In this document: positions 60,230 to 63,979 of the stretch, in pieces
Numbering within the stretch: the first letter of the stretch is position 1
How the letters are laid out: each line of letters begins with the position of its first letter
Origin: Gloeobacter morelensis MG652769
GTDB taxonomy: Bacteria; Cyanobacteriota; Cyanobacteriia; Gloeobacterales; Gloeobacteraceae
Length of the DNA: 64,000 nucleotides
Direction: 5' to 3'
Assembly (NCBI RefSeq): GCF_021018745.1
Contig: NZ_CP063845.1
Span: 1,116,001-1,180,000, forward strand
The notes under the pieces: model-generated
Databases searched by the model: none
What the model was told of the DNA's origin: nothing
What the model saw: the letters and a program-made list of their open reading frames with translations, nothing else
Made by a program: the position numbers and the translations under genes

Positions 60230-60380
60230 CGCTGGGTGGTGCTAGGATGACCTCGCCTTCGGCGGCCGGGGGATCAGCCCGGCCTGAAAGGGGAAAGCGT
60301 GGTGAAAGCCCACCGCTGTGCCGCAACTGTGATGGCGATTGTGCCTGAGCCAGGATGCCCGCCGAGAGTGCTTCACGTTC
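60230..60380 (+). ncRNA. Cobalamin (B12) riboswitch
   Basis: The conserved core is present: GAAAGGGGAAAGCGTGGTG and AAAGCCCACCGCTGTGCC, then the B12 box GCAACTGTGATGG, and GAGCCAGGATGCCCGCC. Upstream GGTGGTGCTAGG fits the 5' element. Binding of adenosylcobalamin usually shuts off expression. The only gene directly downstream is the 63-residue membrane protein at 60414. The bounds are approximate. Confidence 0.92.
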
Positions 60381-60413
60381 CATTTCCGCGTCCCACGGAT
60401 GCAAGGAGCAGCA

Positions 60414-60605
60414 ATGATAAATCTGTTGATTCACAGCCTGGTGCTCGCCGACCACGGCAACGTGTTCAACCACATCGCCGAGGGAAGGTTCGACGAAATC
60501 CTGACCACGCCCCTCGACTGGTTCATCTTCGCGATGATGGTCATCTTCGCAGCCCTCGGTGCGGCCATGATCGTGCGCTGGGCTCGCCGCCCATCCAACC
60601 GATAA
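60414..60605 (+). CDS. 63-residue single-helix membrane protein under B12 control
   Basis: AAGGAG precedes ATG 60414 at ideal spacing. The protein starts MINLLIHSLVLADHGNVFNH, with His residues, and has one strong membrane helix at about 34-55 (DWFIFAMMVIFAALGAAMIV), ending WARRPSNR. Genes behind cobalamin riboswitches usually serve B12 or cobalt uptake, or B12-independent isoenzymes; this suggests a small cobalt or corrinoid transport component, similar in idea but not in visible sequence to CbtB. No partner gene follows on the same strand. The open frame further upstream lies inside the riboswitch and is not coding. Confidence 0.8.
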   Translation: MINLLIHSLVLADHGNVFNHIAEGRFDEILTTPLDWFIFAMMVIFAALGAAMIVRWARRPSNR

Positions 60606-62545: not shown

Positions 62546-63979
62546 GTGCGCAGCAAAGCGGCAAGGATTTTGACGGTGGCGGTGCTGGCGGGAGCGGCGG
62601 TGGCCGCTCCCGTTCGTGCCGGCGACGGTCACGGGGAAACGACTTTTGCTCCGCAGGGAGTGGCCGGTGGCGGCGAGGTGCGCATCGAGCCGCAGATGCA
62701 GCGGGCATTGGGTTTAAAGGTGGCCACCGTGGGCGAGCGGCCGGTGCGGGCGGGGCTGGTCGTCAACGGTCAGATCGAGGCGATCCCCGGCCGTTCAGCC
62801 CAGATCAACGCCCCGGTGGCGGGCCGGGTCGTGCGCCTGCAGGTGCAGCGCGGCCGGGCGGTGCGCGCGGGCCAGTCCCTGGCGGTGCTCGATAGCCCCG
62901 AGGTGCGGACTCTGGCGCTTGAGGCGCAGCGCGAGCGCGCCCAGGCCCGCTCCGAGGTGGACCGGCTCAGCGCCGGGGTGCAGCTGGCCCGCCAGCACTA
63001 CGAGCGGGAAAAAGAATTGGTAGCACTGAAGATCTCCGCCCGCCGCGAATTTCAGCAGGCCGAGGCCGCTTTGCGCGCTTCGGAGGCGGATTGGCGGGCG
63101 GCCCGTTCCCGGCTCGCCCTGAGCGGGGCGGCCTTGAGCACCCGGCTTGCCCAACTGGGGCAAAGCGGCGTGCGGGCGCGCGCGGACGGCACGGTGGTGC
63201 TCTTTTCACCGATCGCCGGGGTGGTGGCAGATCAGCAGGTGACGGCGGGGGAAGCCGTCGAACCCGGCAAGGCGCTTTTTCGGATTCTCGATGCGACGCA
63301 AGTCTGGGCGACTGCCCAGGTCTACGAAAAAGATCTAGAGCGGGTGCGGGCGGGTCGGTCCATCGAGGTGACCACCCAGAGCTATCCGGGCAAGACGTTC
63401 CGCGGACGCATCGAGAGCCTCGACCCGGCGGTGGACCCCCAGACGCGCACGCTCGCGGTGCGGGCGGTGCTCGCCAACCCGGACGGGCTGTTGAAGCCGC
63501 AGATGTACGCCCGGTTGCTCCTGGTCAGCGACGGGGCGGCCCGGCCCGTATCGGTCGTGCCCCGCTCGGCGGTGGTGGCGGCCGACGGTCTGGCGGTGGT
63601 CTACCGCAAAGCGGGAGCGGACCGCTTTCGGCCGGTGCCGGTCGAATTGGGCCGCAGCTTCGAGGACACGGTCGAGGTGCGCGCGGGCGTGCGCGCGGGC
63701 GACGAAGTGGTCGTCGAGCGCGTCTGGCAGTTGCGGGCCCAGAGTTTGAAGCAGCAGGGGGCGGGTGTCGGCGGTGACGAGCCCGGCCTAGGGGAAGCAT
63801 CGCAGCCATCCACGGCCCGGACCGAGGCGCCCGGGCCGGACGGCGCAATCCCCGCGTGGATCTGGCTTGCGGCAGCGGTGGCACTGACGGTCGTCGGTTT
63901 TCTGGCCGGTCTGCAGGTGGCGGGCCGCCGGGGCGGCCAAAGCGCGGGCGTCTCGACCGGCGCACTCCCCAAGCCCTAG
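62546..63979 (+). CDS. RND efflux periplasmic adaptor (CusB/CzcB-like)
   Basis: A 477-residue membrane-fusion protein linking an inner-membrane RND pump to an outer-membrane channel. A signal peptide (ILTVAVLAGAAVAAPVRAG) is followed by the barrel-sandwich parts (AQINAPVAGRVVRLQVQRGR; LFSPIAGVVADQQVTAGEAV) around a helical hairpin rich in Arg and Ala, then a beta-barrel (GKTFRGRIESLDPAVDPQTR). It is unusual in ending with a predicted membrane helix (WIWLAAAVALTVVGFLAGLQ). GTG 62546 has AGGAGAG 7 bp upstream. The RND pump gene starts 9 bp after. Metal or drug substrate is not determined. Confidence 0.92.
   Translation: MRSKAARILTVAVLAGAAVAAPVRAGDGHGETTFAPQGVAGGGEVRIEPQMQRALGLKVATVGERPVRAGLVVNGQIEAIPGRSAQINAPVAGRVVRLQVQRGRAVRAGQSLAVLDSPEVRTLALEAQRERAQARSEVDRLSAGVQLARQHYEREKELVALKISARREFQQAEAALRASEADWRAARSRLALSGAALSTRLAQLGQSGVRARADGTVVLFSPIAGVVADQQVTAGEAVEPGKALFRILDATQVWATAQVYEKDLERVRAGRSIEVTTQSYPGKTFRGRIESLDPAVDPQTRTLAVRAVLANPDGLLKPQMYARLLLVSDGAARPVSVVPRSAVVAADGLAVVYRKAGADRFRPVPVELGRSFEDTVEVRAGVRAGDEVVVERVWQLRAQSLKQQGAGVGGDEPGLGEASQPSTARTEAPGPDGAIPAWIWLAAAVALTVVGFLAGLQVAGRRGGQSAGVSTGALPKP

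Follow-up and report, generated by a model that had tools for sequence, protein, structure and literature searches.

A Cobalamin Riboswitch of Gloeobacter Precedes a Single Gene for a Lineage-Specific 63-Residue Membrane Protein

Introduction

At 143 cyanobacterial riboswitch loci, where targets were named mostly by signature motifs and inspection and not by a profile search of each, B12 riboswitches mostly precede genes for CbiM, HupE, CbtB, a BtuB-like receptor, CbiX, CobG, CobW or MetE, with ferredoxin-type proteins also among the targets. Published surveys of B12 riboswitches give matching target classes (PMC3766115; PMC4284471). Two small membrane proteins of this regulon are the closest described systems to the gene reported here. 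CbtB has about 60-65 amino acids, one transmembrane helix and several histidines, lies directly 3' of a cobalamin riboswitch in cyanobacteria, and has a partner gene next to it; its histidines and CH end are C-terminal, after the helix. CbiN, also found under cyanobacterial B12 riboswitches, is longer (about 100 amino acids), has two transmembrane helices and is encoded 3' of CbiM in an operon.

The Gloeobacter gene resembles CbtB in size, in its single strong helix, in its several histidines and in its position directly behind the riboswitch, and together they are the only tiny membrane genes so placed at the 143 loci. However, the histidines of the Gloeobacter protein are N-terminal, its end is Arg-rich, and it has no adjacent partner gene. 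With CbiN it shares a C-terminal helix with an AALGAxxI-like stretch, but neither the length nor the second helix. Its riboswitch has the full RF00174 aptamer match common to the regulon, whereas the target is one unannotated microprotein and not a known transporter or enzyme.

Other membrane proteins were seen at the compared loci. At L071, L121, L138, L066, L069 and L149 the riboswitch and CbtB are followed by a protein of 375-400 amino acids, with a His-rich stretch in some; the one that was tested matches no Pfam family, and it may be an undescribed CbtB partner. At L004:5236-6692, under another B12 riboswitch, two proteins follow a BtuB-like receptor. The first belongs to DUF7676 and weakly matches a 2Fe-2S family; the second, a membrane protein of 184 amino acids, matches neither Pfam nor NCBIfam and is another candidate B12-controlled permease.

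Results

The window is the whole stretch of DNA analyzed, 64,000 nucleotides at C1:1116001-1180000 of the 4.92-Mb chromosome of the source genome (G000), Gloeobacter morelensis MG652769. Near its 3' end, cmscan against Rfam places an aptamer in RF00174 by covariance-model score over the full model (57.9 bits, where the gathering score is 31.5; E 9.1e-12; model positions 1-189), in agreement with the original prediction of a well-formed B12 riboswitch. The feature as delimited begins at 60230, about 13 nt 5' of the aptamer match. Three B12 riboswitches were found in the genome; the other two precede a BtuB-like receptor, behind which lie a DUF7676 protein and an unassigned 184-aa membrane protein, and CbiX, and both are outscored by the present aptamer.

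Coordinates of the riboswitch and of the gene behind it are collected in the table. Directly 5' of the ribosome site lies the element CCGCGTCCCACGGATG, the counterpart of CCTGCGTCGCACAGG found 3' of other Gloeobacter-order riboswitches and a candidate P13/L13 hairpin; the motif GCGTC(C/G)CAC is found here in the same position and also 3' of the sibling riboswitches. Pairing between L5 and the element reads CTGTGC/GCAC(A/G)G in the siblings and is down to CTGTG/CACGG in this copy; by shuffling, this kissing-loop pairing is not significant in any listed copy, and it is weaker here than in the siblings. The Shine-Dalgarno sequence begins about 22 nt past the aptamer end, and a search for a plus-strand terminator between aptamer and gene found none. 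Given this layout (the pairing being not significant by shuffling), control would be translational, and the predicted cobalamin binding would act on the downstream gene with OFF-switch logic.

Table. Features of the riboswitch-gene pair (positions in the window)
Feature	Position	Strand	Remarks
Cobalamin riboswitch aptamer, RF00174	60243..60380	+	cmscan; boxes GCCGCAACTGTGATGG and AGCCAGGATGCCCGCC
Expression-platform element CCGCGTCCCACGGATG (candidate P13/L13 hairpin)	60386..60401	+	Directly 5' of the ribosome site; kept in 3/3 copies
Shine-Dalgarno AAGGAG	60403..60408	+	5 nt 5' of ATG; kept in 3/3 genomes
Gene for 63-aa small membrane protein	60414..60605	+	ATG to TAA; pN/pS, orthologues, AlphaFold2

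The gene starts at ATG 60414, 33 nt beyond the aptamer end at 60380. Its upstream neighbour, on the same strand, encodes an EamA-type transporter. Downstream, the minus strand carries ynfA and the genes for an M56 peptidase and a BlaI-type regulator, all convergent, and the next plus-strand gene begins only at 62546; by layout, the unit is thus a single gene. The one small gene with a good ribosome site that had been described from the sequence is therefore borne out, and none of the outcomes that would have spoken against the original prediction was encountered: there is, by layout, no further gene in the unit, and no homologue was found without a B12 riboswitch. None of the neighbours is a cobalt transporter gene; a heavy-metal-efflux-like HlyD gene lies about 2 kb from the small gene.

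The surroundings offer two further observations. Between 60945 and 63979 the M56 peptidase and BlaI-type repressor genes are divergent from the CusB/HlyD-type gene, a possible metal-stress efflux unit; in the relative L007 an RND-type pump gene comes after the CusB/HlyD-type gene. In G005 (L196), what comes after the EamA orthologue is not the riboswitch and small gene but a NicO transporter of 215 amino acids.

The 63-codon reading frame is a real coding gene under purifying selection. When three pairwise comparisons are summed, the coding frame has a pN/pS of 0.19 and the other five frames have 0.44-4.2; all three comparisons show a synonymous excess (Fisher p 0.0025, 1.5e-4 and 3e-6), and the only indel among the orthologues is in frame. 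The product, MINLLIHSLVLADHGNVFNHIAEGRFDEILTTPLDWFIFAMMVIFAALGAAMIVRWARRPSNR, has one strong transmembrane helix, which is C-terminal, preceded by a His-bearing helix, matching the small membrane protein with a His-containing segment and one helix that was originally described. AlphaFold2 places helices at 2-22, 26-31 and 33-57 with modest confidence (mean pLDDT 72.5, pTM 0.37, from four sequences). H7, H14 and H20, together with D13 and E23, are invariant in three species, which are so close that this invariance has little power. Since the N-terminal half is acidic and the C-terminus (RWARRPSNR) Arg-rich, the positive-inside rule suggests that the acidic three-His segment is most likely periplasmic and the Arg-rich tail cytoplasmic.

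Orthologues, 92-94% identical, are present in G001 and G002 (the latter and L007, an Aphanocapsa lilacina MAG, are counted once). Riboswitch, ribosome site and gene start occur together at the same place in all three genomes, with near-identical aptamers. The gene is absent from G003, another Gloeobacter, whose only riboswitch is of the BtuB type and whose nearest EamA homologue is 50% identical with different neighbours. No homologue was found beyond the Gloeobacter group in 59 relatives, in a profile search of 390 cyanobacterial genomes or in plasmids, and among GTDB contigs (peptide patterns and tblastn) only Aphanocapsa lilacina matched. Weak profile matches were rejected as homologues: those scanned have no B12 riboswitch nearby, and many lie within larger or broken frames. 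Every homologue found thus has the same riboswitch in front; of the two associations that homologues might have shown, with B12 riboswitches or with neighbouring cobalt transporters, the first held and the second did not. In the open literature searched, no microprotein behind a B12 riboswitch is described for Gloeobacter, though one may have been predicted earlier. As far as that literature shows, the gene encodes an undescribed lineage-specific microprotein, a variant of a known regulatory theme.

No Pfam family matches the protein, and TIGR03943 (NCBIfam) gives only a sub-threshold match (E 0.12). Similarity was assessed by Smith-Waterman comparison with family members, using segment-wise shuffles, and by hhalign. 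Best-score p values were 0.62 for NicO, 0.74 for HupE, 0.07 for CbiM, 0.48 for CbtB, 0.08 for PDGLE and 0.40 for CbiN; other measures of CbiN similarity gave p about 0.04-0.08, which is not significant, and hhalign probability was below 2% for all families tested (CbiN <1%). CbtB (PF09489) was rejected on the Pfam result and the Smith-Waterman score, on a genome-wide PF09489 search that misses the small gene, and on the C-terminus, which lacks the His/Cys-His end. At E 1, the CbiN profile (PF02553) has no match in any of G000-G003. For NicO/NiCoT (PF03824), the protein has H-x4-N-H in place of H-x4-D-H, and one strong helix without a profile match. For CbiM (PF01891), NHIAEG is internal and not a mature N-terminal MHI, in a whole protein of 63 amino acids without a Pfam match. 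The product had been called unlike CbtA, CbtB or BtuB, and the family searches indeed return no such match. Taken as a whole, the original prediction, which also saw in the product a possible minimal cobalt or corrinoid uptake component or a regulator of one, is partly supported.

The source genome carries one CbiM-PDGLE-CbiQ-CbiO cluster (an ECF transporter), without CbiN, and a NicO-CobW pair. No recognised CbtB or CbiN occurs in the three gene-carrying genomes, nor a full-length HupE; the source genome has only partial HupE-like matches, within frames of about 520 amino acids. Their CbiM and NicO genes have no B12 riboswitch, as follows for the source genome from its total of three. At L236:3283-5351 a Gloeobacter NicO gene is directly followed by one for a CobW-family GTPase, a plausible pair of metal transporter and chaperone.

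Discussion

We tentatively put forward, as the likeliest reading though one that falls short of probable, that the gene encodes a small B12-repressed inner-membrane protein, accessory to the import of cobalt (or a corrinoid) through a transporter encoded elsewhere. At low intracellular (pseudo)cobalamin the ribosome site would be free and the 63-residue protein made, while at high levels translation would be off. The protein might then capture cobalt (or corrinoid) or pass cargo to the larger transporter, possible partners being the single ECF transporter, which has no CbiN, or the BtuB system. Both a function in cobalt or corrinoid physiology and a partner are inferred only from the regulation. 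Import is suggested because B12 riboswitches mostly precede the target classes listed above, the BtuB-like receptor and CbiX of this genome included, with CbtB as the only other tiny membrane target directly behind one; because no CbtB, CbiN or full HupE is recognised here and CbiM and NicO are not under a B12 riboswitch; and because the histidines and acidic residues named above are invariant. Against import count the missing detectable homology to CbtB, CbiN, CbiM, HupE, NicO and PDGLE, the lack of an adjacent cobalt gene, and G003, which keeps CbiM without the small gene; the conserved histidines also mean little, because the orthologues are too similar. Repression by B12 is favoured by the missing plus-strand terminator and by a ribosome site directly after the conserved hairpin element, whereas the weaker kissing-loop pairing argues against it.

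Several other explanations deserve consideration. The protein could be a regulator or assembly factor that does not itself handle metal but, at low B12, binds a membrane protein and modifies the activity of that protein. Candidates are the membrane protein associated with BtuB, the ECF transporter and a metal-efflux pump. Its size and single strong helix are like those of known small membrane regulators (general knowledge), and the gene stands alone while CbtB and CbiN have adjacent partner genes; the HlyD-type gene about 2 kb away, with its RND-type pump gene in a relative, would fit as well. Yet no partner is identified and the nearby pump genes lie outside the riboswitch unit, and we regard this role as possible but somewhat unlikely. 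A young lineage-specific orphan behind a spare riboswitch, with no B12 or cobalt function, would account for a gene that was found only in three Gloeobacter genomes closely related to each other, that G003 and other relatives lack, and that has no homologue in GTDB contigs (peptide patterns) or plasmids. This seems improbable for a protein under purifying selection, whose riboswitch, ribosome site and start are conserved together in every genome that has it, and whose aptamer scores above those before BtuB and CbiX.

An origin of the protein as part of a known transporter, since diverged or shortened, with the N-terminus of NicO (H-x4-D-H), that of CbiM (MHIxEG) and helix two of CbiN as the candidate parts, might be read from the likeness of HGNVFNHIA to the NicO signature HGVDADHIA, of NHIAEG to the MHIAEG of CbiM (the Smith-Waterman p of 0.07) and of AALGAAMI to AALGAGVL of CbiN, and from the NicO gene after the EamA orthologue of G005. 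However, no resemblance is significant in the comparisons given above, so that these motif likenesses are no more than leads, and Gloeobacter keeps its own NicO elsewhere, which makes such an origin very doubtful. Small size and weak kissing-loop pairing could also be taken to mean that the frame is untranslated or the riboswitch inactive. The low pN/pS, the in-frame indel and the conserved Shine-Dalgarno sequence speak for translation, and the near-identity of the aptamer in three genomes for a working switch, so that we give this explanation hardly any credence.

Extending the proposed accessory role in import, the gene might be the first member of a new microprotein family, repressed by B12, whose proteins give an unlinked transporter cobalt uptake or cobalt selectivity, for example as a CbiN stand-in on the Gloeobacter CbiM-PDGLE-Q-O transporter, a bolder proposal that we consider unlikely. 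B12 riboswitches reliably point to cobalt or corrinoid genes, and Gloeobacter is an early-branching cyanobacterium in which riboswitch control was not found for HupE, CbtB or CbiMN, the cobalt importers that B12 usually controls. With an unrecognised microprotein as its sole target, the present riboswitch therefore offers a specific lead, open to testing, towards a part that is missing from the cobalt handling of Gloeobacter.
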